DNA from: Akanthomyces muscarius | Lineage: Eukaryota; Ascomycota; Sordariomycetes; Hypocreales; Cordycipitaceae | DNA length: 64,000 nucleotides | Reading direction: 5' to 3' | Assembly (NCBI RefSeq): GCF_028009165.1 | Contig: NC_079244.1 | Location: forward strand, 1,364,001 to 1,428,000 | Part shown: piece by piece, positions 1,750-26,839 of the stretch | Position numbering within the stretch: the first letter of the stretch is position 1 | Layout: each line of letters begins with the position of its first letter | Position numbers and translations under genes: made by a program | Notes under the pieces: model-generated | Databases searched by the model: none | Told to the model about the DNA's origin: nothing | Seen by the model: the letters and a program-made list of their open reading frames with translations, nothing else

Positions 1750-3517
1750 TTAATGTAGTTTGAAGTAACCCGGCTGCAGCCGCTGCAGAACCTGGTCGGG
1801 GTCGTATTTCTTGGAAATGCTCCGGAGCCTCGCGAGATTCGCCTCGCCATAGCTAGCAAAAACATCCTGCTTCTGTGAGGCGTAGTTTTGGTACAGGTAA
1901 GGGTGGTCAAGCCCCCGCGCCTCGGCCGCCGCAACAGAACGGTCCACGATGGCTTGGGCAGCGGCCATAATGCGCTTGTCGTCGGCAATCTTGGTCCACG
2001 AGATGTCAATGTTGACCACTATTGCGACAAAGTTAGCTTTTTGTAAATTGTTGTTCATAGATGGTATACGTACGGGTAAGCGGGCCTTGACCCTCCAGGC
2101 CGAGGGGATTGCCACCATTCTTGGAAAAGTGCTTCGTCATGGAGGTGGTAATCGGTTGGAAAACGGCAGAGGGCACAATGCCAGGAGCATCCTTGACCTT
2201 TTCCACTTCCTCCGTGTATATGGCAACAATGTCATCCATCACCGCCGCACTGTTCTTGAAGGTAAATGTCCAGTAGGTTTTGCTATAACGAGTTAGTTAG
2301 TACCAAGGCATTTCTCCCTTGTCCATGGAAGCCATACCGAAAGCCATAAGGGTTAGTGGCATTGAATTCCTGCGTCAGCGATGGCAGATCAACGACACGG
2401 AGGGTGTCAGCAATGGCGCCAGGAATGGCAGTGAAGTTTCGCAGGACAGGAGGGTTGGCGACAGGTTTGCCGTACTGGAGATCCGACGCAATAACATATA
2501 TGCCCTGGGTCTGGGCGTATGCATAAGCAGTAATAATTTGAGCGTAATCGTCCTCGGGAGACTTGATAGCGAAGCTCTCGAAAGCATTGTTTATGGCCTT
2601 GCTCGTCTCGGGCGTGTTGATGAAAGTCTGTGACCCAGCCCACATGTCGCCCTGAGGATAGGTCTCAAAGTCGAATCGCGTGGCAATGGCAAAGTTATTA
2701 CCACCACCACGCAGCGCCCAGTACAGATCCTTGTCGCAAGACTTGGGGTTGACGTCCCGGATGGAGCCATCCGCAAGTACGACCTGGTAGTTGTAGACAT
2801 TGTCGCACGCCCAGCCATAGCGAGCCGAAAAGAATGATATGCCGCCACCAAGAGTCAATCCTCCGACACCAATAGGGGACACTCTACCACCGATGACGGT
2901 GAGATTGTGGGGGGTCAACTCCTCATACACATTGTACCATGTGTTGCCGGCTCCAGCAGACGCAATCTTTTTGTCTTTAGATAGCTCCACATCCGTTAGA
3001 TTGATGAGATCAATTGTCACACCATCCTCGATATTGGAGGCGCCGGAAAAGGCGCCATGGCCTCCACTCTTGACGGCAAACTGGCATTGGGTAACGCGGA
3101 ACGCCAGGATAGCCAGGGAGACATCCTCGGCGCGGGCGGGGGAGAAACGGCAAGACGGGTGGGTGAGCTCTTGCTGCTGGGACCAGTATCGGTTCTCTTG
3201 GAAGTCATAAATTGACGAGTTGGGGAAGGCCACTGTATGGGGGCGGGAGAAGGCCAGAAAGCCGCACTGTTTCAGAGATATGTCAGCCTCGCCTGGACTG
3301 GAGGGGGGGTACGGAATTTGCCGTCGCAGGAATCTGGGGCAGAACTCACAGCTACGTCGCAGCCAAAATTGGAGACAGCTCTTGTTTGCTGGGTCTCATT
3401 GCGACCTAAATAAGACGATATGTCGGCTTGAACTCCCTCTAGCGTGTAGGGCGAGAAGGATGCAGCTGCAGCAATGCGCGACAGAATCGGCAGAGCTGCA
3501 AGCACAAAGAGGCGCAT
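1750..3517 (-). CDS. Secreted FAD-linked oxidase, berberine bridge enzyme (BBE) type
   Basis: Four exons rebuilt on the minus strand: 3517-3350, 3266-2338, 2282-2074 and 2018-1750. All phases close, giving 524 aa, the usual size for this family. Residues 1-20 (MRLFVLAALPILSRIAAAAS) form a signal peptide, so the enzyme is probably secreted. The FAD_binding_4 domain carries KSGGHGAF, whose His is the usual 8-alpha-histidyl FAD attachment site, and GVGGLTLGGG downstream. The Cys used by bicovalent BBE enzymes in the segment before GVGG is replaced (RVSPIGVGG), so a single covalent FAD link is expected. The C-terminal BBE motif is present as YQNYASQKQDVFASYG. Family members oxidise sugars, alcohols or secondary-metabolite intermediates with O2; the substrate here cannot be read. 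It is divergent from the membrane-protein gene at 5263. The start is the ATG that gives a clean signal peptide. Confidence 0.88.
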
Positions 3518-5262: not shown

Positions 5263-6561
5263 ATGGGCACGCAAAACGTATCACAAGGCGCTGACAAGGT
5301 CCGTCTGACACTACCAGTCGCAACTCTATTCGCGCGGCGCGGTGTAGCCTTGTACTGACTTGACTCGTTTTCTGCATCTAGGAAGGCTTGATTGCATGTT
5401 TATGCGTAGGCGTCGTCTTTGTTATTGTGCGCACCGGCGCACGCTGGTATAAGCTGCGCAAAATCCCTGTCCAAATGGAGGACATCTTCATGTACCTCGC
5501 CTTGGTATCTTTTATCATCACAGTCGCGCTCTACTATGCGACCATCGACACCTTTTTCAAAATCACAGCAATCTCCGAAGGTCAAGCGCAACCATATGCC
5601 AAACTACCGGAGGACCTTGTCGTGATGCTCAAGGAATTCTTCGTCGTCCAATTCTTCTTTTGGCTGACGCTATGGGCTGTCAAATGGAGCCTTCTCTTCA
5701 TGTTCAAGCGACTGACCAAAGGCCTGCCTCTCTACACGCAGATCTGGTGGGGTGTCCTGATATACTCTGTCCTCGTCTTTATCGGATGCTGCATTAGTAA
5801 CTTTACTAGCTGCTCCTCAATGAAGGCGTGGTTCACAGCGGGAGAGTGCAGTACCAGCGCTCGAGATGCGCGCGCCAAGGAAATCAGTCTCTGGTTTAGT
5901 TTGGCCGCCGATCTATCTACTGATCTTCTGAGTATGTCACTTTTTCTCCCAGCTCACAGAGATGCTGACGTGCCTTTTAGTCATGGCCGTGCCGCTTCGC
6001 GTCCTATGGAATCTCAAGATTTCTCGCATCGAAAAGATCAGTATTGGACTCATCTTTGCCGTCGGCCTCATCACCATGGCCACTGCTATTATTCGAAGTG
6101 TGTCACTCAACTCTAGCTCAAGTACAGGACAAGTGAGCACGACGTGGCTGATGTTGTGGGCTGGCATTGAAGGAGCAGTCGGTATGCGCAAGCTCTCCCG
6201 CATCTGATCGCGCTGATATAGCTAACCGTCTGTAGCCATCATTGTGGGCTGCCTCCCCTCGTTTGCGATCTTCATCCGCGGCCGAGTAAAAGCCTCGAAA
6301 GCCCAATACGAGGAAAACTCGAATCAAACCCCACCAGACTACAACTCGCAACCAAAGTCCCGCGAACGGGCAAACAGTCTAGGATCTCAAGATCCCAATC
6401 CCTTATGGGGGACCCGCGACAACTCCAGCGACAAAAGCCTAGTAGATGACACTATTGTCACTCGTGCATGGGCGCAAAAATGGCAGAATCCGCATCGGCA
6501 GCAAGCACTGCAAAGAGATCCCGAGTCCGGCCACGAATTACATACGCTACCGCCGCCATAG
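5263..6561 (+). CDS. Seven-helix integral membrane protein, fungal rhodopsin-like (SAT4/PTH11-type)
   Basis: Four exons: 5263-5298, 5382-5931, 5981-6181 and 6236-6561, giving 370 aa. The first exon encodes only 12 residues (MGTQNVSQGADK). The donors GTCCGT, GTATGT and GTATGC and the acceptors CTAG, TTTTAG and TGTAG are all acceptable and phases close. The protein has about seven hydrophobic helices: LIACLCVGVVFVIVRTGARW, then DIFMYLALVSFIITVALYY, and later blocks around FFFWLTLWAVKWSLLFMF, VLIYSVLVFIGCC, LIMAVPLRVLW and AIIVGCLPSFAIF. The RTGARW and KWSLLFMFKRL blocks are typical of the fungal rhodopsin-domain/SAT4 family. These are plasma-membrane proteins, some of which are PTH11-like receptors. 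There is no CFEM domain at the N-terminus. The tail from about residue 275 is hydrophilic, Ser/Gln-rich and cytoplasmic. Ligand and role are unknown. Confidence 0.82.
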
Positions 6562-8087
6562 CAGGTTTGTGGCGAGCATACCCTTGTTTCGTGTAAATTT
6601 CCGGCGCAGCGGGCGAATATTACTTTTGACATGGGCTATTTACGAATAATGAGACAATTGCATTAATGACACGAACTTTGGCCAAATGCAAAAAGTGACA
6701 CGCAGAGAAATCAGTCGCTGACTGAATGCTACCGGCCCTACCCGTGCAATGCGGCAGATCACCAAGGACTAATCTATCGCCAGCACTGTCGCCGTAATAG
6801 GCTTGCCCCTTCGTACCTGAGTGTCCTATGAATAGCAAAATCACCTGCATTAGTGGCATAGAAATGGGGTGATGCCTTCGCCTTGCAGGGCCCCCTAGTT
6901 TTATTGGGCAGGGGCATTAGGAACGCGGTTCAGCCTCATGGCCCTGTCTAGGGTTTCAACTTTCAGTCAAATTGGCCCATGATCATGGCGAGTGGTAGCC
7001 AATCCGTCGGGCTAGAGGCACGATAATTTACCAAATCACCAGTCATGTCGCAAGCGATACGATGCTGGAGCCCCTAATAATCTCAACACGGGTATTTGCA
7101 TCATGCTGGTATGTCCGGCGCGGCACCTCATGCATGTGGCTGGACTATGCCGTTCGCTAGTGGGCCAGAGATACGGATACAGAGCATAGGAAACAAGGAA
7201 AGCTTATTATGGCCGTCTTGCCTTCTCGGTTGACCTGTTTGCGACGGTACTATTGATTTTGAGTAGTCAAACTGGGTACTGGCTACGGGGAAAGCCACAC
7301 ACGCGCCGCCCACGCCTTCGGCGCCAGGGGTTGATAAACTAGGTTGCGACGGTAGCGAGCTGGCTATTCCAGAACCAAGGTCAAAATGGAGTCAGCGAGC
7401 TGTCATGTTGCAGGCTGCATGGAGCGTCGTCTATGATGCTTACTAGCTTGCGAGACTTACAGGTCGGGCTTGCCGAGAGGTGGTCGGCACGACGTCCAAG
7501 TAGTTATGTTCGACCAAACATGTCAGTAGATTACAAAAAGCGAGAAACCAACGGCCCGAAAATAGGGAGATTCATAGTCCTCAGCGGGACGTCCCACGGA
7601 GTAGTTAACATATTACCAACTTTCTTTGCGTGCTTGATCGCACGGCACACGCAACATAAGGCGGCCGTTCCTGATCTCGCGAGGCTGGCTCTCTCCAGAT
7701 TGAATACCGAGGCTGATCCAGCTGCAATACCACCAGCTAATGTTAAACTGTGCTCGGTAAGCGGATATACGATCCTGCACCGACAGCAGATTAGCGCATG
7801 CAGCAGTGAATGTTTCAGTGTTCCGAGCCACTAATTATCGGGCCCAGCGTCGTCATGCGCAGGTATTTGTAGATTAAATGATCAGGAATGATTGTCCGCC
7901 TAAAAATTACTGGACACAAGCATGAGACCGAGCTGCTACTGATGATCAGTAGCAGCTCGCAGAAGCTTCTTGATCTGCCGATTAAAATTATGCTGAATTG
8001 TGCTTCCTATATAGACATTGGTATCATAGCTAAACTTAAAAGACCTCTCCCCTTTGTTTCCAAAAATTGCGCCGACCGTGGATGAAT
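6562..8087. other. Intergenic, convergent 3' region
   Basis: This 1.5-kb region lies between two convergent genes. I see no supported gene, RNA or repeat in it; the 133-codon frame at 7433-7834 lacks codon bias and resemblance. A perfect inverted repeat occurs around 7930-7960 (AGCTGCTACTGATGATCAGT and its complement), an 11-12-bp stem that could act as a 3' end structure of the minus-strand gene or be chance. Confidence 0.4.
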
Positions 8088-8969: not shown

Positions 8970-10641
8970 GGTTTCTGGAGGGTATGAATGTAGTTTTTTG
9001 AGACGATGAAATAGTGAGAAGAATTAATTTAGGCCGGCCAGTGGCGACAGCGGTGGAAAATACATCAGACTTCCAAGTGATGATCGGTGGGGACAAAGCC
9101 TGATCCCCTCCGCTTATTAGCCAGATGCCGTTTCTCCCGTAGCGTGGCGGCCGCGTAATACACCACCCAGCAAGCGACCGTTTTTTTCTCCCTCAGATCC
9201 ATGCGGCTGTAGATGCCGGTTTTAGGGGCATGACTTGTGCGTGGCTGGCCACCCGGCGCTGCTCGGCAAGTCAAGCAAGAAAAGGAAAGACGAGCATTCT
9301 AAGGAATCGCAGGGGCGGACTGGTTTGGTGCAAACTTGTATCTTGTCATGGGAATCTTGTCATGGGAAACAGTACATTTTATTTGATCGCAACCCAAGCA
9401 ACTAGCTAATGTCAATAAATTCAGCGCCACACCAGTCCACAGCGCCAACACGATCTATATCTTTGCCGCAACAGCTGCTGCTGGAGTCTAAGCAGTTGAT
9501 TTGCCTGGTAGCCTTTGCTGTTGAGTGGAGCAGAGGTGCCCCGGCGCAGAGTTTCAATTTATTTTATCGTTTTACTTCCCAACCCTGCACGGAGCAAACC
9601 ATGCTCTCGAGTCTATTTCCTAGCCCGAACGTTTGAGGTTCAACTTCGTTGTAAAATTGAGTGATAATTCAGCGCAATCGGTGCAAGGGTCAGATGAACC
9701 TTGAATGATTTTGGGTACTGAAATCGGGCATTTGCTGCTCATGCCATTTGGGCTACTCTCAGCAGCCCGGCGCGCGGCGCAAACATTGGTCGGCAATATG
9801 CATACACAGCCGCAGCTGAATCGTATTGACTGTTCACCACACATATCGATGGTTGGTTAGAGGAGAAATTGAGAGAGAAAATAGTGTACTGGGGACTATT
9901 GTCAAGTATTGCTTCCAGACTGGGATTATGGGACAGTTAGGTATTTAAATATATTTAAATACTTCACGCTGGGCATGGTAGCTGGTCACCTAAGGATATG
10001 AATCACTAAACACACTTGCTTTTGTCATAGTTCATAGTTTCCAGAGGCTTAAAGCATCGTGGCGACTCCTTTGGTGTGGTTTGCGCTGCGAATCAACGTA
10101 TCGCTTTGTGATAACTATAGCACCCGCTTGCTAGGTTACGCGCACCCTAGCCGGTCCGATATGCGTATTCTCCGTGTCAATTCTCTTTTGTATCAATGTT
10201 CTTTGTGTCAATACTTTCTTGCATAAATCACTTCCTTTCTTTCTTGTGTTCATTCTCTGTTGTGATTTCCTGCCTTAATTCTTCATCGCAGTTCTTTACA
10301 GTATTAACTTTGAAGTATTACTGTGTGCATTTAACGTGCGTCTGATGGAAGTGCTGACTACTCTGCCGCGAAAGAATCGCCAGGCTTGACTGCCTGAGAG
10401 CACCGGCCTTGGTCTAACGTTTAGTTCATAGGGAGAGAGGGAACCTCAGTTACTTTGAGTTATTCTGGGAAATCTCGATTTTGGAGTCTTATCTGCCTCA
10501 TTTTTCGCTGTGCCCCGCCAACTATACCACTTGTAGAACAATACCCCCATAATGTAAAGGTATAAAAGTTCTTAAAGTGACATCGTCCTGTACCACGAAA
10601 TAAATGTGATTCAAATTTAGCTACCTCTTTCTGATCCAAAC
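8970..10641. other. Intergenic, AT-rich in its distal half
   Basis: This 1.67-kb region starts with the promoter of the secreted protein gene (minus strand). From about 9900 to 10640 it becomes AT-rich, with runs such as a duplicated TATTTAAATA around 9941-9961. No open frame here has coding bias and no known repeat is recognisable. Confidence 0.4.
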
Positions 10642-11085
10642 TTATACTTCAAATGCTAGCCGCGCGCGTATTTCGGTCGAGCGTCCCTGTGTGCATCTCG
10701 GATTAGTGCTGCTTTCAGCTTGAGCGCTGCTGCAACTGGAGGCGAGGGAGGCCATTAGAGTATCGGTTGAAATATACCTTGCTGGTACGCAATAGTCGCA
10801 TACTTTATGTTCGCAGACTTTTCCGCCGTCATTGAAGCAGCAAATTTGCTGTTCGTTCGGGCCTGTCCCGCAGTGGCAACAGCGCCAGCGCCATCCGTAT
10901 CTACAGAAGAAGCAGCGTTCCAAACGGCATGGCTCACATGATATGATATCTGGCTCTTTCCATGAAGTCTTCCCACATGCGAAGCGCTGGCCTGTGTAGT
11001 GGTTCATCACGGACTCGTCGCAGTAGGCTGTTTGATGGATCGTGTCGACACCACAACGGTGCTTCTGTATGACGAGTCTGCACAT
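10642..11085 (-). CDS. Small Cys-rich protein, hypothetical
   Basis: The open frame encodes 147 aa starting MCRLVIQKHRCGVDTIHQTA. It contains more than 15 cysteines between residues 2 and 105, many as CxxC pairs (CEPCRLERCFFC, CCHCG, CDYC), together with His residues. This suggests one or two structural zinc sites rather than a secreted disulfide protein, since there is no signal peptide. The last 40 residues are Ser-rich without cysteines. I recall small ascomycete proteins that also begin MCRL and combine WRWRCC with CxxC pairs, but I cannot name a function. The start is placed at the ATG directly before the first Cys. A second coding-looking frame lies immediately upstream in a different phase (10934-11398), so this model could be the 3' part of a longer or frameshifted gene. 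Confidence 0.55.
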   Translation of the reverse strand: MCRLVIQKHRCGVDTIHQTAYCDESVMNHYTGQRFACGKTSWKEPDIISCEPCRLERCFFCRYGWRWRCCHCGTGPNEQQICCFNDGGKVCEHKVCDYCVPARYISTDTLMASLASSCSSAQAESSTNPRCTQGRSTEIRARLAFEV

Positions 11086-11398
11086 GAAGAGGAATAAATA
11101 ATACGGGATCTTGTGGCTGTTTCATAGGTTCTTTGATAATTTGCTGGTTTATTTGCAGCAGTACCTGCTTTAAGCCCTTGCTGAGCGTGTAGTGTTCTTG
11201 GCGCCAGGCCTCATAGCTCAGACTATGGAAGGGGACGCTGTGGTAGTGCCCGTGTTGACGTGCGAGATAGAATGTCAGATAATAATTAGGGTAAAAAGGG
11301 ATTTGTGTGACGCTTTGTATGGTACTTGCGTTTTCTTGTGGTATGGTTGAGCAAAACTCCGTGGTGGGATTCGCAAGCGTATCAATCAGTCGCTTGTG
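10934..11398 (-). pseudogene. Coding-like frame upstream of, and overlapping, the Cys-rich gene
   Basis: The frame is open for 465 nt from the stop at 11399-11401, but its first ATG is only at 11125. The segment upstream of that ATG (about 11125-11300) reads like protein, for example YHSVPFHSLSYEAWRQEHY followed by SKGLKQVLLQINQQ, with partly C-ending codons (CAC TAC CAC AGC GTC CCC TTC). It overlaps the Cys-rich frame by about 150 nt in another phase. There the overlapping part turns Arg/His/Pro-rich, as expected for a shadow frame. The simplest reading is that 11085-11398 encodes the N-terminal part of the same protein and that a frameshift or an unrecognised small intron separates the two. 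A chance open frame is possible. Confidence 0.3.
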
Positions 11399-11982
11399 TC
11401 ACCCTGATTAGTCCTACTTCAATCACCTGCTCTTTTTGAGCGATCCTTGTTCACCTGCAGCTATAGTGGTACCAATATGAATGGAGTCCCAAGGTCTGGT
11501 TCTTGTAGTATGTTAGTGTATCGGGAGCGGGCTTGCAGATAAAGCGCCGCCATTAGCCATCGGGCATCAGCGAATGAGCCCGATCGTGCTACACTGCTGA
11601 ATGACTACCTTGCATTTATGGTCCATGTTAGCGGCCAGTCCTCTATCAACAAGGCTGTGGACTTCTCTATTTGGTAAGAAAGTATAATATTGGAGTTATC
11701 TTGCATGTTGCTGGCTTGACTCTTTTGGTGCCATTGGCTCTAAAGTTGCAGGGACGGAGGATGGGAAAATTATTGTCTGAATTTTATAGTGAAGGGATGA
11801 GCTCGCAGGATTAAACCCTACTTATTCAAAGAGATGAACGGCCTAATGAGAAAGCCAGATAAACGATGTCACTATGAATCCAATGGCACTTCAGGTCTAC
11901 TTCCGTGTCTATTGTATAGTGCGAAGGAAAACTTGACAATACGTGAATTGTCTAGGAAAACTGTATATTGGATGCGAAAGAT

Positions 11983-12148
11983 TCAGAGGCTGAATTTATT
12001 GCACTTCGACCAGTCAATGAAGCCAGCATTGCTGCAGCGTTCGACTTTCTGGGCGAGCATGTGGTGGTTCTCGGGGCTGTGGATCTGCTCGGCGCACATG
12101 TGGATGAGGTTGATGAGAAAGAAGTCCGTAGCAATACACTCGTGGTCA
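11983..12148 (-). CDS. Orphan coding-looking fragment, probable 3' exon or gene remnant
   Basis: After a good 3' splice site (pyrimidine-rich TTTTGTCAG, acceptor at 12149-12150), a 55-codon frame runs to a TGA at 11983. It reads DHECIATDFFLINLIHMCAE, then QIHSPENHHMLAQKVERCSN, then AGFIDWSKCNKFSL. Codon use is strongly C/G-ending (TTC CTC ATC AAC CTC ATC CAC ATG TGC GCC GAG CAG ATC CAC AGC CCC GAG AAC CAC CAC), unlike the AT-rich DNA around it. I do not recognise the protein. A possible upstream exon around 12195-12260 would need a GC-AG intron, so I could not build a complete gene. Neighbouring frames on the same DNA are shadows of it. Confidence 0.35.
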
Positions 12149-12590
12149 CTGACAAAACCAAACTTATGAACAGTACAAAAAAAAAAGAATACGCCTGATG
12201 ACTGACATTTTCAATGCGTAGCCTAGGGCTGTAAGCTCGAGGTTGGCCACGGGCGCGGGCGACCTACTCAACTGAGGTCGGGAATTGGGAGAGAAGCGAG
12301 GAGCTCAGTTTCGACATTAAAGACAGCCCTCAATCGATGAATAAAAGAGTATGATTCAGGAAAAGTTTCCCGTGCGCATTTTCTGGCATTTTTGGCATCT
12401 GCGGAAAGTATGGACTTCCTCGGTGGCTCAGAGTAGGGAAGGCGATCTGTGGGGTAACGCATATAGCCGGCTGGTTGTCATCAGAGCTGCTAACTCCAAA
12501 TGTCAACCACTCACTAGCCGATCGGAGTCCTGAGCATCTGCAACCATTGGTGAAATATATCATTGATCGCTTGAAGTTACTACTTGCATC
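12149..12590. promoter_or_regulatory. Intergenic, promoter side of the MDR oxidoreductase
   Basis: This region contains a run of ten A residues near 12178 and the promoter of the MDR gene. ATATATC lies about 30 nt upstream of the ATG at 12591, too close for a normal TATA box unless the leader is very short. No further gene is visible. Confidence 0.35.
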
Positions 12591-13742
12591 ATGCCCCGTG
12601 CCTTGACTCTCGACGCAGGGGAAGGAGGCCGCCCTGGCAAGGTCTACTACCCGTAAGTTACTGTAGCTTTCGTGAGGATCAGCTTTTTCGAGATACTGAC
12701 GTTGTAACGCCGCAGTCTTCAAGTCAAGCAAGTTCCCAAGCCGAAACCAGGCCTAAATGAAGTTCTGGTCCGAATCAAGGCAGCAGCTCTCAATCACCGG
12801 GATTTATGGGCACGCCGGCATTTGTACCCTGGGCTGTCTCTCACAAGTCCACTGTTAGCCGACGGTGCTGGCATCGTGATCGAGATTGGATCAAAAGTCA
12901 AACGCACCGAGTTGCTTAACCAAGCTGTCATATTGGCTCCTATGCGTGGTTGGCAAAACGATCCCGTTGCACCTGAGGATCCTCATCGATTTGCCGTCAT
13001 TGGCGCTACGCTTCTATGTGACGACGGAACAGGGCAAGACTACCTAGCCGTCCACGAGGATGAGGTTGAACTCGCACCCCACCATTTAACTCCAGCTGAA
13101 GGCGCAGCACTTCCCCTTTGCGGACTTACTGGCTGGCGGGCGCTTGTTTCTAAGGCTGGCGTTACAGGCCCTGGTAAAAATGTGCTGGTTACAGGTATTG
13201 GGGGCGGCGTCGCTCTGCAGGTTCTGCAGTTCGCCGTGGCGCTTGGGAGCAACGTATATGTTACTTCTGGAGACCAGAAGAAGATTGACAAAGCCATCGC
13301 AATGGGCGCGCGAGGAGGTGTCAGCTACAAGGAAAGCCGATGGGGCTCCGCCTTATTAGAGATGCTCCCCGACGGCCATCCATACATAGACGCGGTCGTG
13401 GATGGCGCGGGCGGAAATATCATTGCGGAGGTGGCACCCATCGTAAGACCCGGTGGTGTCATTGCGCAGTATGGCATGACAGTCGGCAACAAAATGGACT
13501 GGCAAATGCGAGCTGTGTTGGCCAACCTGGAGCTCAAAGGCTCAACCATGGGCTCAAGAAAAGAGTTCCGTGATATGGTGGCGTTTGTAGACAAGCACAA
13601 GATCAGGCCAATTGTCAGTAGAACTGTCCGAGGGCTCAGCGACCTGGAAGCGATCGAGACGTTGTTTGCCGACATGCAGGCCGGACGGCAATTTGGAAAA
13701 CTGGTCATCGAAATAGACGACGAACTACAGGCGCAGTTGTAA
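12591..13742 (+). CDS. Zinc-type alcohol dehydrogenase-like / quinone oxidoreductase (MDR superfamily)
   Basis: Two exons, 12591-12652 and 12716-13742, with donor GTAAGT and acceptor CGCAG, give 362 aa. The first exon encodes MPRALTLDAGEGGRPGKVYY. The GroES-like N-terminal domain contains the family phrase EVLVRIKAAALNHRDLW. The Rossmann domain has TGIGGGVALQVLQFA near residues 180-195 for NAD(P)H binding, followed by the paired glycine segment DAVVDGAGG. The Cys cluster of the structural zinc is absent, as in the YogA/quinone-oxidoreductase branch. These cytosolic enzymes reduce or oxidise carbonyl/alcohol pairs or enones; the substrate cannot be predicted. The gene converges on the alpha/beta hydrolase gene, only 173 bp apart, and is the left edge of the 12.6-23 kb metabolic gene run. 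A product-processing role there is inference. Confidence 0.88.
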
Positions 13743-13915
13743 AAGCCATCGGATTCTGAACTATGGGCATCATCTCGAGTATAAGCATGATTTTCTGGAA
13801 TCTCGATCTGATCAAAAGCAGTAGCTAGCAATAAGTTGATCGAACTAATGTGCCGTTTCTTTCTAGTTCAAATAGCAGTGAAGCGCTCACAGCACTCACA
13901 GAGGAATCCTTGCTG

Positions 13916-15132
13916 CTATGTATTCGCTGGCAAACCATAGTCGCCCTCAAGAAGCTTAGTAAACCATCGCTGGATTCGCGTGGAAGCGGGACCATCGAAC
14001 TGGTGCGTCATTTCCTCAAGTAGCACCGCGTCATGCGACTCTTTATATCCTACCTCGGCAACAAGATTGAGTTCGGGAGCATGTTCCCTCAGCAGCTCTA
14101 TCAACTTCGTACTGTGGTCGACAAGCACCTCGTGTTCACCATACGTGATGTACATGTGTCGAACGATACCACTGATGCCGTCGTACCTGCTCGGATCTGC
14201 GTCCAGAGGAGTTCCCCACCAGTATTTGCTCTCCATCTCGGGAATTGGGTTATCGGTTCCGGAAACTTGATATTGCAAATACTCCACTCGCGGTCTCCCA
14301 GGGGATAGGTCAACGCTGAGATACTTCTCAAATGACTGTTGGTACGCAGCACGAAATGTCAGGTATGGAGAGACAAGAAATACAGCGGGCAGCTGAGCAT
14401 CTAATGTGAGAGAGGTGACTTGAGGATGGGGATGCAGGATATGCATCAGTAGTTGCATCGTCAGGTTGCCTCCGGCCGAGTCTCCGCCGATGATTACGTC
14501 GCGGGCAGAAACTCCCGTGTCTAAGATGGCCTGGAGGCCCATTGATGCCTGTTTTAAGTGGTTGGGGTATTTGGCTTTCGGGGAAAGTGTATACTCGAGA
14601 ATTGCGCAAGCGACGTCGATTCCCGCAGCCGCACTTGGCTTGACATACAACTCCCAGCACCAGCGAAGATGGCCAGGCGCGAGCGGGACAAAGAAGCCTC
14701 CGCCGTGCAAGAAGTACACGATTTTGGTCGCTTTTTGGCGGTTGCCCAACCAAAGCAGAGAGGCTCCAGATTCATCGAGCAGTTCGATATTTGGAGTGAA
14801 AGAGACGCCCAGGGTGCCGCCGGGGTGTTCCATGGACTTTTGGCGGAGAAATTTCTGGTAAGCTTCGCGGGTCGAAGGGACAACATGCTGTATCTGTCGC
14901 GGCGAAAGTGTCGTAAAGGCAGCTCTGATGAAACCGCATGTTACAGTATTGCGAAGATTCATGCGCCAAACTATTGCCAGTATTGCAGCTCGCGAAACAT
15001 AAACGGTAAGGCGCAGCGGCACTGTAACAGATGTTAGCGGAGGGCTTGTTTACTTGCCTTTGCAAGGGAATTCTTACACACGGTGATGACTTTCAATAAA
15101 AGACTTATTCGCTCAGTAATAGTGAGCGCCAT
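13916..15132 (-). CDS. Alpha/beta hydrolase, hormone-sensitive lipase (HSL) type
   Basis: Two exons, 15132-15078 and 15021-13916, give 386 aa. The long exon is open from a GTG only. I added a small 5' exon because an ATG-led frame (MALTITERISLLLKVIT) ends in a GTAAGA donor and a GCTAAC branch point plus TTACAG acceptor follow, restoring the N-terminal helix usual for this fungal group. HSL landmarks are the oxyanion motif HGGG at residues 124-127 and GGDSAGG with the nucleophile Ser200. An acidic residue in GEHEVL (about 314-319) and the His in SHDAV (about 348) complete the triad. The N-terminus is hydrophobic, so membrane association is possible. The family hydrolyses acetyl and other esters. 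Beside a Baeyer-Villiger-type monooxygenase, an ester or lactone substrate is a reasonable inference. Confidence 0.88.
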
Positions 15133-16454
15133 GTCGCTTACGTATGATGATGCTAGCTGAAGAGAAAAATATAGATATATAAGTATTTATTGATGAGCTT
15201 TTCGCAAAACTGTAAAGAGAACTCGACACCACAGCCCATAGTTTACATATAGCAGCGGGAGAGGAGTAACGGAAAGCCGGGTGTGCCATCTGACCAAATA
15301 GCCGAAACAGGCTACTTGCACCCCTGAAGCGATGTGACAGCTCTAGACTGCCTAAACCGATGCTTCCGATCGGATGAGCGAGATTGTAGATCGAATCAGG
15401 CGACTTTGCAATGATGATCTTTTTCTGTCCGGGTTCTGGCTCAGTATCAAATTAAATAATCCGGGGTGCTGCGAGATCTAGTCTTAGGACGCCTCGGTGA
15501 GGCAACTACATGCATTAACATCAAGTCATATGCTTCCTGCCTGTTCGCACCACTCGATTTTCGATTCTTGACACACGTAGCACTATAACAGTAGCCTGTA
15601 TTCAAATTAATTTGAATTCTTTCTCTAGAAGAGAGTGCAATAGTTGTACGATTTGAAGCCTGCTCGACAAGAAATAAGCTTTTAGCCACAGGCACCTGCC
15701 GCGGGTAACGCCCACCCTACAATAGGGCTGGGGCATTTGGAACATTACTTGTGTACTTGTGCTGGGGAGGCCCTATAAGCTTGGCTTTCCTTTACGAGCC
15801 TGCGCTACACCTCTGAGTGTTCATCTCCACGGGTGCTTTTCGTTGAACTAGGAGCGGCCTATAACTATGAGGTAAACCGCCGGTATAATCCAGAGGCGGG
15901 AGAGTTTATGTCCCATAAACAACGCCGCACTGTCTAGTAACCCGTCTAGCGTCCTTAGCAACAACCATTGTCGAGCAGCAGGTGCGTAGGCTAACAACCA
16001 CGAATGGCTACAGAAACGTGCCGAGAGCCATGTGCTGATGAGCCTATAAAGCGCCAGAGTCCCTGCATGCTTACTCCCTGGAGTTGCTCCATATGCAAGG
16101 GTAGGCCGCCCCTCGGAAACGACCCACGATCTGTGCTGACGGTGAATGACCGAACCAGACGGAGGTCCGTATTTTTTCAACTCGTCCACACTGTCTTGAT
16201 AAAGCATAGATTTTGTTTTAAGTATGGCGCACGCGAACTTAACACGTAGCTATGCCGTGCCTAAACTTTAGCACACGTAACAGCGATAGTGCGGCCACGC
16301 TTGCGGGGTGGTTACGTGCTTCCATGCTGCAATTCCGTCAGCGCCTTGCTGCCCTTTCAACCCTACTTTCTACTCGTTCTAAGCTCATACAAAATTCGGT
16401 TGCTCATTGTTCTGCCGGGGGAAAGAAAGCCGGCCTTCTAAATTAACCTTCAAA
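15133..16454. promoter_or_regulatory. Divergent promoter region between hydrolase and Baeyer-Villiger-type monooxygenase
   Basis: This 1.3-kb region must drive the hydrolase (minus) and the monooxygenase (plus), so it is the natural place for a shared control site. The first 500 bp are AT-rich (for example a long AT stretch at 15165-15195). A 119-codon frame at 15848-16207 has no family resemblance. I could not identify a convincing pathway-specific operator by eye. Confidence 0.4.
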
Positions 16455-18376
16455 ATGGGGGTTTTAATTGACGCGCGACCCATTGTGGACGCGCACATTG
16501 ACACGGAGGCCGGGAATGACGAAAATATCTCCGTCCTGCCGCCGCCGCCTGCTTCCGGGGACCGTGTGCACCAAGAAGCGACACCGAATTCGGCATCTGC
16601 TGCACCGCAAGCGCGGAAGCAGACAACGCCGCTGGAGCTTGTGGACAGGTATATTGACGAACCGCGCCCGCTCAAAGTCGCAGTCATCGGCGGGGGTCTC
16701 GCGGGTATTCTTGCAGGCGTCCTTCTACCTGCTAAGGTACCCGGAATCCAATTAACTATCTACGAGAAAAACAGAGACTTTGTGAGCTAGCTCAAGCATG
16801 TCTTTCGATGTCCTGAAGCTCACCGGTCATACAGGGAGGAACTTGGCTAGAGAACATATATCCAGGTGTCCGCTGCGACATACCGTCTCATGTTTATCAA
16901 TCGACTTTTGAGCCGAAAAAAGATTGGTCCGATGAGTTTGCACCCGGGCACGAAATTCGCGACTATTGGCAGTCTGTCGCTAAAAAGTACAACGTGTACC
17001 AGTATGCCAAATTTGAGCACTTGGTAGAAGGGGCGGCGTGGGATGCCGCTAGCGGAAAATGGCGGGTTACTTCCAAAAGCATAAAAAAGAACGATGCCGA
17101 GACGCTGGAATATGATTTTGTGCTGAACTGCATTGGCCGATTCAACGATTGGAAGCTACCAGCGTATCCTGGCATTGACGACTTCAAGGGAACCTTGAGG
17201 CACACTTCAGATTGGGACCCTACGTTCGACCCGGACGGCAAAAAAGTGGCGGTCATTGGAAATGGAGCCAGTGGAATTCAGGTTGTCGCTACTTTACAGA
17301 AGACTGTGGCTCGTTTGGATCACTACGCCAGAAACAAAACATGGATTGCAACCTCTTGGGCAGGAGATGAACGGACGGCTGGAGCCCAACCTATCGAGAA
17401 GGAGCTCCAGGACACCTTCGAGGATTCTACGACTTACACTGCCTACAGGAAAACGGTTGAGGACAAGTACTGGCGCGGTTTTCCGGGCGTTCTTCGCGGT
17501 AACGCTAAAAACGTAAACCTCAAGTCCAACTTCATCGAAGTGATGCGGAAGAGACTTTCGAAGAAGCCAAAGATGATTGAGCACTTGGTTCCCGATTTTT
17601 CTCCCAATTGTCGACGCCTCACGCCTGGTCCTGGCTATCTAGAAGCCATTACCGAAGATAATGTGGACTACATACGCACACCAATTCGCAGAATTACCGC
17701 GACGGGTATTGAGACGGAAGACGGTGTCCACAGAGACGTCGATGCCATTTTCTGTGCCACCGGATCCAAGACCGATTTAGTCCCGCGTTTCCCGATCAAA
17801 GCCAATGGAAAGACACTCGCCGATGCTTGGGCTCCAGACGGACAGGAACCCTTCCCGTATACTTATATGGGTATTGCCACACCGGGATTCCCGAACATCT
17901 TGTTTGTTCATGGGCCGTTCGGCACTGGCCCGTCTGGCACCGTGCCCCAAAGCGTCGAGAGCCAGCTGTCGTACGTTGCAAAATTGCTGCGCAAGGTATC
18001 TAGGGAAGGAATCAAGTCTGTTGATGCCGACTCCAAGGCAGCTGACGACTTTAATGAGTTTTCTGAAGCGTTCTTCAAGACCACCGTGTTTACGGACAAC
18101 TGCAGCTCCTGGTACAATGGCGGCAAGCCAGGTGCTCGAGTGCATGGAATCTGGCCTGGCAGCGCTGCGCATCTCACCATCGTGCGACGTGATCCGCGAT
18201 GGGAGGACTGGAACTACGAGTATCTGACTGGTTCGGGAAATCGGTTCCATTGGTACCTGGGCAATGGATCTACAAAGCGGGAGGCAGACCCCGACTCAGA
18301 CATTACCTCGTACCTTCAAAACCCAGAAGAAATTGACTTGAAAGATGTGCACGAAAGCTGGTGGAGTATCCCATAG
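16455..18376 (+). CDS. Flavin-binding monooxygenase, Baeyer-Villiger (cyclopentanone/phenylacetone monooxygenase) type
   Basis: Two exons, 16455-16781 and 16835-18376, with donor GTGAGC and acceptor ACAG, give 622 aa. An N-terminal extension of about 72 residues is low-complexity and lacks a signal peptide. The FAD-binding GGGLAG is at residues 79-84 and is followed by the conserved GGTWLENIYPGVRCDIPSH. The class fingerprint FKGTLRHTSDWD is at residues 226-237 (FxGxxxHxxxW, with Asp where Pro is commonest) and the NADPH-binding GNGASG is at 251-256. Such enzymes insert oxygen next to a carbonyl, turning ketones into esters or lactones with NADPH and O2. The size fits the larger fungal type I enzymes. 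It is flanked by a hydrolase and an UNC93-like transporter, the basis for proposing a cluster. Some relatives are N- or S-oxygenases, so the substrate class is uncertain. Confidence 0.9.
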
Positions 18377-18823
18377 ATAAGATCTTCTAGAAATCTTTTA
18401 GACATTAGATGAAAGGAGCCCTATTCTAGATTGGCAGACACCTAAATGGCAGAGTGCTTGGCGGGGGCAGTGGGCACGCCGAAGCCGGAAGTTATTGATA
18501 TTTCGTATTATCAGCCCATTTTGTCTCTTAGTATTTCTTATCTGTCGTCGCAACCGGTTGGCTAGCTTGTCTCCCAGCTTTAATGCGCTGGGGTATGTTG
18601 CTTCGGTTCCTTGAAATGGCGTGCTTGGGCAATGCCGCAGAGCGGAGGAGCTCATCTAACCCGCAGACAATAAAAGCAGTGAAATGCATTGGGTGACCTG
18701 ATATCCTGATCTATGCGTAAAATCATTTTGCGGTTCAGTTTTACTTGGTCAACGTATACTTGCAGCCTCAAAAAGTGATTTTATCTCTGTTCCTCCGGTA
18801 CGCGTTGGCACGCTCCCGCGAAA
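18377..18823. promoter_or_regulatory. Intergenic between monooxygenase and transporter
   Basis: This 447-bp gap holds the 3' end of the monooxygenase and the promoter of the UNC93-like transporter. No gene is visible; the minus-strand frame at 18398-18655 has no coding features. Confidence 0.4.
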
Positions 18824-20490
18824 ATGGCGTCCGAGCACATCCCTGGTATGTCAACCGATGGCTAATAGCTGTGCCTCTTTGAGACGTCATTTTCTGACTC
18901 GAGCATCAAAGTCAAATGGTATCGATCAACCTTTTATAATATCACGATCCTCGGCCTGTGCAACTTTGCTGCGCCAGGGATATGGGGTGCTATGAACTCC
19001 CTCGGCGCGGGAGGAGCACAAAAACCATACTTGGTCAATACAGCGAATGCGTTGACGTTCTCTCTCATGGTAGTTTCTTGTCTATTCTCCAGTGCCTTGG
19101 TTCGCTTGATTGGGATCAAGGGTGCTTTGCTTTTTGGAACGTACGTGCGCTTGGCATTTGACCAATTGAACAAGAAACTTCTTCTCTAACAAGACAGCAC
19201 AGCCTTGGTTATGCACCTTATGCCGCAGGCTTATACACAAATAATCGCTTCGGCACGGAATGGCTCACCATTTTTGGGGCTGCTCTGTGTGGTATTTCTG
19301 CCGGCGTATTCTGGATGGCAGAGGCAGCCATCGCAATTGCCTACCCTGAGCCCTGGAACAGAGGCAAGGCACTGGGATATTGGCTGACGTACCGAGTCAG
19401 TGGTCAGATTCTTGGTGGTGCCATCAACTTGGGCCTGAATTCGTCCCGCAATGAGGCCGGAAAGGTATCGCATACAGTGTACCTCGTCTTCATTGCTCTT
19501 CAATGCCTCGCTCCCCTCGGCGCGCTCTTCCTGACGCCACCCGAAAAGGTACAGCGTCAAGATGGGAAGCCAGTAGAGCTGGGAATCTTCAGCAACCCTT
19601 GGTTTGAGATTAAAGCTACCATCAAGCTGTTCTTCTCTCTAAAGTTCCTGCTTCTGCTACTGCTTATTGGACAAGCCGTGTATGCCGAAGCTGTGTTTTT
19701 CACCTACCTCTCCTGTGAGTACACAACCCTCTTGCATCTTACTCACAAAAGCGAATTTCTAACTAGCTGGTTTTCAGTGTGGTTTAGTGTTCGCTCGCGG
19801 GCTTTGGGATCATTCCTGTCTGGTATCGTAGCCGCGATTGGGGGTAACGTCCTAGGGGTAAGCCTTTCGTCACAATGCCACTGCAAAATATATGCTGACG
19901 ATGTTGGTTGAACAGTACTGGCTAGATAAAACGACTATCTCGCTCAAGTTCAGAGCCAGATCCACGTTCTGGACAATTTTAACTCTGCAAGGGGGGTGGT
20001 GGACTTGGGCGACAGTGTTAGCTACGCGATACCATCGCACGCAGCCCACGTACGACTGGACAAGCCCTGGTTTCGGTTCCGGCTTTGCCGTCTACATTTT
20101 CTTACTGCTTGGCTTTCAGCTGAACTACATGTTTTTGTGAGTAACGCAAGTCTGGATGTTGCAATACTTTTCTAACGCTCAGCTAATAGGTACTTCATCA
20201 TTCAAAATTTGTCCGACTCTAAGGAGCAGATCATCCGCTATTCTGCGTTGCTGCGCGGAACTGAGTCTGCTTGGCAAGCAATTAGCTACGGCTTAGGATC
20301 TATCGAGATTATGGCCCAAGTCGGCAGCATCTACTTGAACTTCAGTCTTTGGGCAGCTGCGATAATTCCAGCCTGGCTCGTTTTGCGCCACATTGGTGTA
20401 GCAAAGCCAGGCGATGGTGAGGATTCGGAGCATAGCATAAGTGAAGCTAGCGATGCCAAAGCCGCCAGAGAAGAGACCTCTGGACTGTAA
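18824..20490 (+). CDS. MFS transporter, UNC93-like (DUF895)
   Basis: Six exons: 18824-18845, 18912-19140, 19203-19714, 19778-19857, 19916-20136 and 20190-20490, all with canonical splice sites, giving 454 aa. The first exon encodes only MASEHIP plus one base. The start of the mature frame, VKWYRSTFYNITILGLCNF, is the hallmark of fungal UNC93-like proteins, followed by APGIWGAMNSLGAGG. About eleven hydrophobic segments follow, and the protein ends in a charged cytoplasmic tail with acidic and Ser residues. It lies in the membrane. Fungal relatives are poorly characterised; the group is treated as transporters or channel regulators. In the metabolic gene run it could move the substrate or product, but this is inferred from position only. 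Confidence 0.87.
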
Positions 20491-21121
20491 TTGCATATCA
20501 ATTGGCCACATATGGACCATAGTTCCCATAATCCTAGGTTGATGAGAATTTAGATTCCCACAGAACCTGCAAGGCTTGTGGAACGCAGGAGCAAGCGGCA
20601 TACTGTATCGGCACAGTATATATCTAGCAAGATCAAATTCCAATAGCCTGGGGATAGAAAATATGGCCCAGCCCGTTATCAGATTGCTTCACTGTTTTGA
20701 CTTTGAGATCCGAGATCGGAACGTCTTGTCGACTACACGAGATATGGCTGTGTAGGCTGCTTTTCGTAAGACATAGCCAGAATGGCGCCATCGCATATGC
20801 CGGTACTCCCACCCGGCACAAGAGATCTGCAGATGAATGGTCTATCAATTCTTCCCCACAATCGGATATAATTGGAAATATAGTAAATTAACGGCCACGT
20901 TCCTGGCTGTTTCACGTGCGTCGCAATTGCGTCGCCACTATCACGTCATTGCGTTGGCGGTGCACTGAAGCGGAGGCTATCGCACTGAACACCAGACGAC
21001 CGCGCCGAGCTTTTATACCACCACGCGGGTATTTCACTTTCATGTACGCGATTATATATGTCTTGGCCCGTCACAGTTCTAGGGAAAGTCTTGCCTAACA
21101 ACCTCAAGTACGACTAAAAAC
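20491..21121. promoter_or_regulatory. Intergenic with promoter of the FMN monooxygenase
   Basis: This 631-bp region precedes the FMN monooxygenase. It is GC-richer from about 20890 to 21030 and contains CACGTG (20912-20917), a palindromic E-box-like hexamer that could bind a bHLH factor; a single hexamer is weak evidence. Confidence 0.4.
21053..21059 (+). promoter_or_regulatory. Putative TATA box of the FMN monooxygenase gene
   Basis: TATATAT lies 63 nt upstream of the ATG at 21122, a normal distance for a short-leader fungal gene. Confidence 0.5.
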
Positions 21122-22965
21122 ATGGCTGACAAGGCTTCTGCGAAGGGAAAGAAGTCCCTCATTCTCAACGCCTTTGTGATGATGTGTAGGTTTTCGTTAA
21201 CAAAAAGCACTTTCAGATTTCTAATGGAAATTTAGGTAGCGGCCATCAATCTCCAGGTTTATGGCGCCACCCGGATGACAAGTCGTGGAGATTTGACGAA
21301 ACAGAGCATTGGGTTGAACTGGCGAAGCTACTTGAGTCGGCCAAGTTTCACGGCATCTTTATTGCTGATGTGCTAGGTAAGTTTCTCTTGATGGAGACAA
21401 AACAGCCGCAGCTAACTGATTTAGGTGGTTACGATGTGTACACAAAGTCTTTGGATCCAGCGATCGTCTCTGGTGCGCAGTGGCCCGTGACAGAACCCCT
21501 TGCAGTGGTTCCCGCCATGGCCGCGGCGACGAAAAGCATCGGCTTTGGCGTGACTATTTCTACCACATACGAGCAGCCATACCACTTGGCTAGGAGGATT
21601 TCTACTATTGATCACTTAACCAAAGGGCGGTAAGTGTGGTTCTTCCCAGATATGCTTGACCCCTCAACTAATTAGCTTTCTCAAGGCTGGGCTGGAATGT
21701 GCGTACAAGATCAAAGTACCTTCTAATACCTCTGCTTACATTGCAATAGATTGTAACGAGTTATTTGGACTCGGCTGCCAAAAATATGGGACGCAACGAG
21801 CAGTTGGATGTATGCTACTTATCCCGTCCCGGGAGGGTAAAGAAATACTAATGGTTGCAGCACGACGAGCGCTACGCCCAAGCGGAGGAATACATGAAAG
21901 TCATGTACAAACTGTTCGAGGCATCTTGGCGCGATGATGCGGTGATTCTTGACCGTGAACGGGGTGTTTATACCAACCCAGATCTTGTTCGCCAGATCAA
22001 TCACGAAGGGAAGTACTACACAGTTCCTGGTCCACACATTGTCCATCCCAGCCCACAGCGAACACCGCTGCTTTTGCAAGCTGGCGCGTCCAAGTCAGGG
22101 AAACTTTTCGCTGCCCAGCATGCAGAAGCGATATTTACTTCTGCTCACGCTCCCGAAGCGTGCAAGAAGAACATCGCAGAGATACGGCAAACTGCAAAAG
22201 ACGTTTTCGGCAGAGACCCACGAAGCATCAAAGTGCTCGCTCTGGTCACTCCAATTCTGGGTAAAACTGAAGAGGAAGCACTCGCCAAGTACAACGACTA
22301 CAAGAAGTATGCCTCCCTCGACGGGGCACTTTCGCTTTTTGGCGGCTGGACGGGGATGGATCTGAGTGCCTACGGCGATGACGAAGAGTTGCGCGAAGTT
22401 GAAAGCAACGCTGTGAGGTGAGCAACTGTCTCTGCAATGGCAGTGAATGTTTTGCTGTTATCCGGCTAACAGTCTTCAGGTCGACCGTTCAGGCTTATGC
22501 AAGGTTCTCGCCAGCGAACGCAAAATGGACAAAGCATACGGTTGCTGAACATGTAAGCCTGGGTGGCAATGGACCACTGTTCGTGGGAACTCCCGGGCAA
22601 GTCGCGGACAGTCTCGAAACTTGGGTCCAGGAGGCCGACGTCGACGGATTTAACCTAGTGAGTCCTTTATTTATTTATTTTGTTTATTGTTTTTTTCATC
22701 GATTAGACTCGCCGATTTTTATGCTGACTCGCTCTCCCAGGCATATGCGTTATTCCCGCAAACCTTCCAAGACATTATTGACCTGCTGCTTCCTGAGCTG
22801 AGAAGGCGCGGTTTGTTTTGGGAAGATTACTCAGTCCCAGGCGGAACGTATCGCGAAAACTTTTACACTGAAGCTGGCCAGAAGCACGCCAAGCAAGAAC
22901 ATGTGGCATCAAAGTATCATTGGAAGGCAGGGCGGACTGCAGCGCAAAGTACTTTCCCGGAATAG
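21122..22965 (+). CDS. Luciferase-like FMN-dependent monooxygenase, NtaA/SnaA/DszA family
   Basis: Eight exons: 21122-21185, 21236-21376, 21425-21629, 21686-21698, 21750-21809, 21861-22417, 22480-22657 and 22741-22965, giving 480 aa with all phases closed. The fourth exon is only 13 nt but is needed to produce the conserved RLGWN-IVTSYLDSAAKNMG block. Other family landmarks are CSGHQSPGLWRHPDD, FIADVLGGYDVY, EPLAVVPAMAAATKSIGFG, the STTYEQPYHLARR block, SPQRTPLLLQAGAS and GTPGQVADSLETWV. These flavin-reductase-dependent TIM-barrel enzymes use FMNH2 and O2 to oxygenate or cleave C-N and C-S bonds (nitrilotriacetate, dibenzothiophene sulfone, streptogramin) in bacteria; fungal copies are mostly uncharacterised. 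No partner flavin reductase is in the window. It converges on the alpha-galactosidase gene, 116 bp away. Confidence 0.9.
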
Positions 22966-25382: not shown

Positions 25383-26839
25383 CTAGCGCCGAGTACCCTC
25401 TTGCTCCGACCTCACCAGCCCATCGTGGGACTTGGTTAGATTTGACTGCCAGTCACTACCCTTTGCGTGATCCACATCGGTCAACTCGTTTCCATGGCTT
25501 TCCAGTGATGTTTCTGAGCGGAGGACATTTGCACCACGCGATCCATGCGCGTAAGAGACACTCTGACCCGATGCCGTCGTGTTCCCCAGCAACTTCGGGA
25601 ATAGGCGCAAAAGCAGCAGTCGCAGCGAAGGAAGACATGTGCAAATCATTCCAATGTTGACCTCGATTGTCGACCAATAGGCAATCTCCCATTGATCCCA
25701 AGTTGGGTTGTTGGAGTTTGCGAAGCCGACCAGAGATCGAAGCCGGAGAATAGAGACAACCGTCACGCTATGTCAAATAATTAGAGTCACGACCGAACTA
25801 TACTCGTTAGAGCTTTACTTACAAGGTTCCAGTCAGAAACATGATGACGACGCCGACCTTCTTTCTCCAATGCAGTTGCAGCTTCGTAATCTGGCTCAAG
25901 GGAATGGCAATCATCAAGATGTCGATCAAAACACTGATAGTGGCGTTCGACCAACCCATGGCATTGATGTTGATGCAATGGCCCTGTCCAGGGTTCTCGC
26001 TGTACTGCGTCCACCAGTAGTGAATTGGCGTGCACTGGAAAATGGCCGCTGTGACAAAGACGACGCCAAAAAGGACATTGAGAATGCAGATCCCCCATAA
26101 CAGCCGTCGGATGCCCGTACCGGGGAACACACAGAGATAAAATGCCGATAGACTCAGCTTGAGCATAGACAGCTCTGCCAGGTACAAGACTTCCATGATG
26201 TACAGCCACATGACAAACGTACTTAGCTCGCTGACGGACATGGTCCACACATCCTTGCCCAGGCCGTGGTCGGCAAGGCCCTTGATGTTGAGGACGGTAC
26301 CGGAGATGCGGAGCACGACGGTCAAGAGGATGATCTTATCGTCGGGGCCAAGTGCCCGCCTCGAGCTCCAGAACTGCTTGAAAGCAACGCGCACAAGCAC
26401 AAGAGCGATGGCGAGGACACCAAGAATAATCGACATCGTGTAGTATTGCTGCGTCTTGTTGCGAACGGGGGCGCCGCAGGCCGTCTGGGTTATATTCTTG
26501 GTGTGGAGGGAGTCTGAAAGACTGCATGATTGGGAAATGCATGCAGTTGCATTTTTTTGCAAATTATCATCGTGGCAAATGCACTGCATGTCGGTCGGAG
26601 AGCACTTCGAGGCGGATATCGCGGTCAGAAGGCATGGCAACTAACGGCACGTCAAACCTCGGTCAGCAAATGAAGTCTTCGGTTTTGGGTCTGATCGGGG
26701 GTCATTTGCAAACACCTACAGCACAAGGAGGCACCGACGACAATTGCGACATTGGGCTTTCTGCCCGTGGCTGCTGCGACGCGGCCACGCAGAGTTGCGT
26801 GCCGCATGCCAGCAATAGGCTCCAGTATTGGACGAGCAT
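25383..26839 (-). CDS. CFEM-domain, seven-helix GPCR-like receptor (PTH11 type)
   Basis: Three exons, 26839-26720, 26640-25823 and 25767-25383, give 440 aa. A signal peptide (MLVQYWSLLLACGTQLCVAA) is followed by a CFEM domain with all eight cysteines at residues 39, 43, 53, 60, 62, 74, 79 and 95. Asp57 sits where CFEM proteins coordinate heme iron. The first intron splits the CFEM domain right after PPCA, and the donor GTAGGT is the only one that restores the PPCALPCLLTAI pattern. Seven hydrophobic helices follow (about residues 107-365), including the fungal rhodopsin-family segments TQYSENPGQGHC and DILMIAIPLSQI. The 70-residue cytoplasmic tail is hydrophilic. PTH11-class proteins sense surfaces or host cues at the plasma membrane; the ligand here is unknown. 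Confidence 0.9.

Follow-up and report, generated by a model that had tools for sequence, protein, structure and literature searches.

Baeyer–Villiger monooxygenases (BVMO) and luciferase-like monooxygenases (LLM) have been described side by side in the pdc cluster of Caenibius tardaugens, which acts on progesterone and in which each of the two enzymes is reported to make testosterone acetate from progesterone (PMC12239570). In this work we analyze five neighboring genes in a 64,000-nucleotide stretch of DNA from Akanthomyces muscarius, an insect-killing fungus of the Cordycipitaceae (Hypocreales) (contig NC_079244.1, positions 1,364,001 to 1,428,000; the whole stretch is called the window below), which encode members of both families together with an MDR-family reductase, an HSL/Say1-like hydrolase, and a UNC93-type transporter. 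The likeness to pdc is one of family content. Pdc is bacterial, however, and has TetR- and LuxR-type regulators, and its accessible description names no carrier or hydrolase; the word "esterase" is absent from the main text (PMC12239570). Neither regulator type was found among the 30 window pieces that we scanned, mostly longest frames.

A fungal precedent is provided by vidF, vidP, and vidH of demethoxyviridin formation, where a BVMO, an esterase, and a dehydrogenase cut a pregnane side chain (PMC5943271). There, the BVMO is followed by the esterase and then the dehydrogenase, but the vid cluster is biosynthetic, contains P450s, and the accessible text mentions neither an LLM nor a UNC93 carrier. 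The hxn genes for nicotinate are likewise clustered fungal genes that degrade one small molecule, although with other enzymes, a regulator of their own, and co-induction (PMC5746545). For Aspergillus fumigatus, one paper lists a DszA-family and a flavin-binding monooxygenase with distant gene numbers (PMC10455693). In the open-access literature, under the terms used, we recognized no description of the combination of BVMO, UNC93, LLM, HSL, and MDR genes among the papers listed. We consider the A. muscarius genes, with a probability of roughly 60%, to be a catabolic or detoxifying cluster composed of a conserved core, i.e., BVMO, UNC93 transporter, and LLM, and of local additions.

Results

All five genes were found intact and side by side at 12591–22965 of the window, belonging to the families named by a first-pass annotation that had been made from the letters alone, and each has a complete spliced frame with GT-AG introns (Table 1). 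Protein searches among named species covered LLM, BVMO, and HSL. LLM and BVMO each had a search of their own, from which the best 120 of 7955 relatives were used for LLM and the best 120 of 1366 for BVMO. Pairs were matched by hand, with an equal printed contig size taken as the same contig. Both genes lie on one contig in 24 of the 26 species present in both best-120 lists, versus about 1.6 of 26 expected for an assumed genome of 35 Mb. This also holds when contigs are small: where the LLM contig is shorter than 150 kb, BVMO is on the same one in six of six cases, and below 1 Mb in 11 of 12. Close locus tags were seen for LLM and BVMO in four pairs (LLEC1_01065/01067, PWT90_07608/07606, PspLS_10798/10795, and OQA88_3090/3085). 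The linked species comprise Sordariomycetes, e.g., Neonectria, and Dothideomycetes (Lepidopterella, Corynespora, Lophiotrema).

Eight of the 24 linked species have incomplete names in the LLM list (Coniochaeta h, Pleurostoma r, Lepidopterell, Whalleya micr, Durotheca rog, Thozetella sp, Corynespora c, and Hypoxylon tru). We excluded Annulohypoxylon truncatum, which has three incomplete LLM names and could be paired by size alone (25 of 27 if kept), and Neoarthrinium moseri, where both contigs and locus-tag prefixes differ (24 of 27 if taken as a miss). Thermothelomyces and Hypoxylon sp. rows with incomplete names were also left out, as no contig size agreed and the species stayed unmatched. 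Pairwise distances of LLM and BVMO in the 24 species correlate (r 0.59, with none of 2000 permutations as high), which could be explained by shared species history alone. Viral contigs scanned for BVMO and LLM yielded no relative.

The UNC93 gene follows the same pattern. In Cladorrhinum, a predicted protein of 1041 residues (P0239) consists of BVMO and UNC93 parts with 61% and 73% identity to the window proteins, and Podospora didyma has a shorter merged protein of this kind (P0208); these joined proteins most likely are merged neighboring genes. Furthermore, a contig filed under a deltaproteobacterial metagenome-assembled genome (NYXK01000071.1, here L006) carries BVMO (minus strand), LLM, and UNC93 (both plus strand) within about 6.2 kb, in an order that differs from the window. 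On sequence grounds, the UNC93 gene is hence part of the conserved core, because it is merged with BVMO in two genera and stands beside it on L006. In A. lecanii and Aphanocladium album, one gene number separates LLM from BVMO, and an intervening UNC93 gene would fit this gap.

L006 is eukaryotic, as GT-AG introns interrupt its UNC93 gene, one of them at the position found in the window. A neighboring gene carries the fungal domain DUF7779. We therefore rejected a bacterial origin of the module and treated L006 as a mis-binned fungal contig. The metagenome-assembled genome, an incomplete view of that fungus, had no HSL match, and its MDR matches reached at most 34%. On another of its contigs (C85), a BVMO-like gene gave three separate matches, as would be expected of a gene interrupted by introns.

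Conserved adjacency, as looked for in fungal catabolic clusters, was thus found for BVMO, LLM, and UNC93, and for HSL in two related species, so that the lack of a conserved neighborhood, which the first-pass annotation had named as part of what would refute its proposal, was not observed. By sequence comparison, the grouping goes beyond chance for the three core genes, and for HSL among close relatives. For the core it is probably functional, because the three genes remain linked in many other molds. The further proposal that all five genes act together stands in part: it holds for the linked core and for HSL, which lies beside the core only in close relatives, whereas MDR does not accompany the core on L006.

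Domains were called at curated cut-offs for the window pieces and the spliced MDR, HSL, and UNC93 proteins, and the spliced LLM was compared with NCBIfam; for the Pfam check of LLM and BVMO, their A. lecanii counterparts P0001 and P0121 were used instead. A type I BVMO is recognized by two nucleotide-binding motifs and, between them, the fingerprint FxGxxxHxxxW(P/D). The window protein has this fingerprint (FKGTLRHTSDWD at 226) between GGGLAG at 79 and GNGASG at 251, and conversion of ketones to esters or lactones is predicted from the family. The strict fingerprint occurs in six of the 24 linked relatives, and 20 conform if F or Y is allowed at the first position; of the other four, one has S at the end and three vary at the first or the last residue. 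Among solved structures, the A. lecanii orthologue is most closely related to phenylacetone monooxygenase.

The LLM matches TIGR03860 over its full length (1–422 of 422) with 527.1 bits (cut-off 279.7), which places it in the NtaA/DmoA family. Among solved structures, its A. lecanii orthologue is closest to two bacterial enzymes, the dimethyl-sulfide monooxygenase DmoA (6ak1, 484 bits) and the alkane monooxygenase LadA (3b9n, 436 bits); DszA reaches 249 bits. The first-pass annotation had regarded the family as rare in such a fungal setting. The LLM is not unusual in fungi, as every row naming an organism among the best 120 of 7955 relatives, read by eye, is fungal. The A. muscarius genome has two LLM genes. 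The second, 67% identical (L003/L004, C6:3769000-3788800), has no BVMO or UNC93 match nearby and is surrounded by genes for a multicopper oxidase, a Zn2Cys6 regulator, a sodium:solute symporter, a nitronate monooxygenase, a chitosanase, and a hexokinase. A search beyond named fungi gave two loci, of which L006 alone has the core; in the other, a Streptomyces locus (L007) with an LLM of 40% identity, no BVMO or UNC93 match was present in 17 kb.

For the transporter, the match to UNC-93 (PF05978) scores 33.7 bits (cut-off 22.9) but is limited to 13–196 of 379, and MFS_1 scores 35.2 bits (cut-off 33.4), in agreement with a UNC93-family protein.

HSL matches Abhydrolase_3 (PF07859) with 61.4 bits (cut-off 25) and Say1_Mug180 (PF10340) with 48.6 bits (cut-off 21), the latter spanning only 2–219 of 374. 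With HGG at 124 and GDSAG at 198, it has the motifs and domains of an HSL-type esterase/Say1 protein, and the spliced protein is identical to A. muscarius LMH87_011103. Named relatives with at least 61% identity come from A. muscarius, Lecanicillium saksenae (Cordycipitaceae), and A. album (Hypocreales incertae sedis). Beyond these, metagenome rows are intermediate and named relatives have at most 39% identity, save one Lecanicillium at 42%. By locus tag, HSL adjoins BVMO in L. saksenae and A. album only. When the relative lists were read by eye, both genes shared a contig in five of 11 pairings, i.e., in A. album, L. saksenae, a contig of 51456 bases, Cladorrhinum PSN259, and Discula destructiva, here on a contig of 7.6 Mb. 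The best reading of these sequence comparisons is that HSL is a lineage-level addition to the three-gene core.

Elsewhere in this genome, two further HSL loci have a BVMO-family gene close by, at distances of 1.1 and 6.2 kb. This makes two of seven HSL loci near such a gene versus 0.04 expected within 8 kb, with the distances considered (1.5 and 8 kb) picked after the data had been seen. Because of these two further loci, the data support that BVMO and esterase act as a pair, although fungal metabolic genes generally tend to cluster and the distance was chosen post hoc. At C3:2157500-2177300 (L010/L011), a gene for an HSL/Say1-like hydrolase shares about 9 kb with short-chain dehydrogenase genes and a BVMO-family gene; at C2:490000-499900 (L012), an HSL-type hydrolase gene and a BVMO-family gene are adjacent and divergently transcribed.

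The spliced MDR protein has ADH_zinc_N and ADH_N above cut-off. Zinc-dependent MDR alcohol dehydrogenases are marked by a GHE-type catalytic zinc site, which this protein lacks, and it contains just two cysteines. Its closest solved chain is 9mc1, a "trans-acting enoylreductase", with 429 bits, and the runner-up has 134 bits. For these reasons an ene-reductase role appears likelier from the sequence than that of an alcohol dehydrogenase, and the alcohol–carbonyl interconversion first ascribed to MDR is doubtful. A predicted protein with ADH_N joined to BVMO (P0165) was considered as a sign that MDR is conserved with BVMO; we rejected this, as that part did not match the window MDR.

Table 1. 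Features of the five-gene region (window coordinates)
Feature	Position	Strand	Details
MDR-family reductase	12591..13742	+	exons 12591-12652, 12716-13742; 362 aa
HSL/Say1-like alpha/beta hydrolase	13916..15132	-	exons 15132-15078, 15021-13916; 386 aa
Intergenic, divergent HSL/BVMO	15133..16454	.	from gene models; no enriched shared word; possible candidate shared promoter of HSL and BVMO
Type I Baeyer–Villiger monooxygenase (BVMO)	16455..18376	+	exons 16455-16781, 16835-18376; 622 aa
UNC93-type MFS transporter	18824..20490	+	six exons (18824-18845, 18912-19140, 19203-19714, 19778-19857, 19916-20136, 20190-20490); 454 aa
NtaA/DmoA-family FMN-dependent luciferase-like monooxygenase (LLM)	21122..22965	+	eight exons; 480 aa

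Discussion

From the enzyme families we infer a common substrate and an order of reactions. The UNC93 carrier might move a lipophilic, ketone-bearing compound. In this fungus, MDR might begin by reducing a conjugated C=C bond. BVMO would then place an oxygen atom next to the ketone, yielding an ester or lactone, and HSL could cleave the ester into alcohol and acid; both steps follow from the families to which the enzymes belong. LLM may carry out a second oxygenation, with cleavage of a C-C, C-S, or C-N bond, either on the same compound or on one further down the route, and it would draw FMNH2 from a reductase encoded elsewhere. As an uncharacterized three-gene module linked across Sordariomycetes and Dothideomycetes, the core lends itself to deletion experiments and metabolomics.

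Several observations weigh against a catabolic cluster of this composition. In Coniochaeta sp. 2T2.1 and Biscogniauxia mediterranea, LLM and BVMO do not share a contig. HSL and BVMO are apart in six of the 11 pairings (Apodospora peruviana, Cercophora scortea, Tolypocladium ophioglossoides, Colletotrichum shisoi, Elsinoe fawcettii, and Sphaceloma murrayae). Neither HSL nor MDR occurs in the 18.9 kb of L006, and therefore neither is essential to the module. No regulator or flavin reductase was recognized in the scanned window pieces, and the promoters have no shared word exceeding shuffles.

Organosulfur scavenging is an unlikely alternative. Here, BVMO would oxidize a thioether to the sulfoxide or sulfone, LLM would cut the C-S bond like DszA or DmoA, and the carrier would import the compound. 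The top solved match of the LLM orthologue, DmoA, is in agreement with this, as is its relationship to DszA, but LadA as a non-sulfur enzyme scores nearly equally, and the scheme gives HSL no role. A weak lead is a perfect match at 20782, upstream of LLM, to the CYS3-type site with the consensus ATGRYRYCAT. However, 0.96 such sites are expected per window, and the L006 sites at 6708 and 11226 fall outside the region between the divergent starts of the core genes. CYS3-like sulfur regulation was hence set aside, since a single site upstream of LLM is close to chance expectation.

It is quite unlikely that the catabolic cluster is a eukaryotic counterpart of pdc, in which BVMO and LLM, two unrelated flavin oxygenases, would oxidize ketosteroids or triterpenoid- or ecdysteroid-like ketones, the Say1-like esterase would cut the ester, and UNC93 would move the steroid. 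Whole cells of Beauveria and Isaria are reported to perform Baeyer–Villiger steroid oxidation (PMC6128828, PMC6151793), and for Isaria the progesterone products could not be identified. We found no paper on Akanthomyces and this oxidation in the open-access literature. The 2025 pdc paper states that the enzymes with which fungi remove the side chain of progesterone had not yet been isolated (PMC12239570). If the counterpart were real, the cluster would offer candidate genes for the conversions seen in Beauveria and Isaria, which are kin of this fungus. More generally, were the substrate a ketosteroid or terpenoid ketone, genes would be at hand for conversions known mainly from whole cells, the vid genes, which serve a biosynthetic pregnane, being an exception in part (PMC5943271).

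Subterminal oxidation of long-chain alkanes, e.g., of insect cuticle wax, is improbable. LLM would act as LadA to form a secondary alcohol, MDR would yield the ketone and BVMO the ester, and HSL would cleave it. Among solved relatives of the LLM orthologue, LadA ranks second, and one study proposed a LadA and BVMO subterminal route in Aspergillus flavus (PMC9468676). Nevertheless, MDR without GHE is enoyl-reductase-like, the core on L006 lacks MDR and HSL nearby, and many relatives come from fungi that are not known as insect pathogens.

We rate it as equally improbable that the genes are not catabolic but left over from the tailoring part of a secondary-metabolite cluster, although some BVMO relatives carry the names stcW, moxY, or tazF. 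Tailoring is commonly carried out by BVMOs, hydrolases, and MDR enzymes that resemble enoyl reductases. Yet no synthase domain was present among the scanned window pieces, as the first-pass annotation had also noted for backbone synthases, and core linkage across two classes better suits a general catabolic module. Chance neighbors with independent roles are very improbable, since the observed LLM–BVMO linkage far exceeds the expected 1.6 species and survives rearrangement in L006, even if HSL adjacency is seen in close relatives only.

Genomic surroundings

The window sits on contig C4 of a genome of 36 Mb in 12 contigs. A second copy of the cluster was considered and rejected, as the paralogues are scattered. 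The layout described earlier needed correction: HSL is on the opposite strand and separated from BVMO by 1.3 kb. Of the flanks first proposed, the right-hand glycosidase proved to be an alpha-galactosidase (Melibiase_2, Melibiase_C), whereas the one piece scanned of the left coding fragment had no Pfam match. On this side, a stretch of low GC (0.455) at 10001–12000 contains fragmentary frames, with one piece scanned and no Pfam match, and a genome search for a second copy of 10500–12500 found none. Genes with a fungal rhodopsin-type domain flank the cluster at 5382–6116 on the left and 25819–26640 on the right, the right one with an additional CFEM domain. Finally, a FAD_binding_4 oxidase is encoded on the minus strand at 2283–3395, about 9 kb to the left of the cluster.

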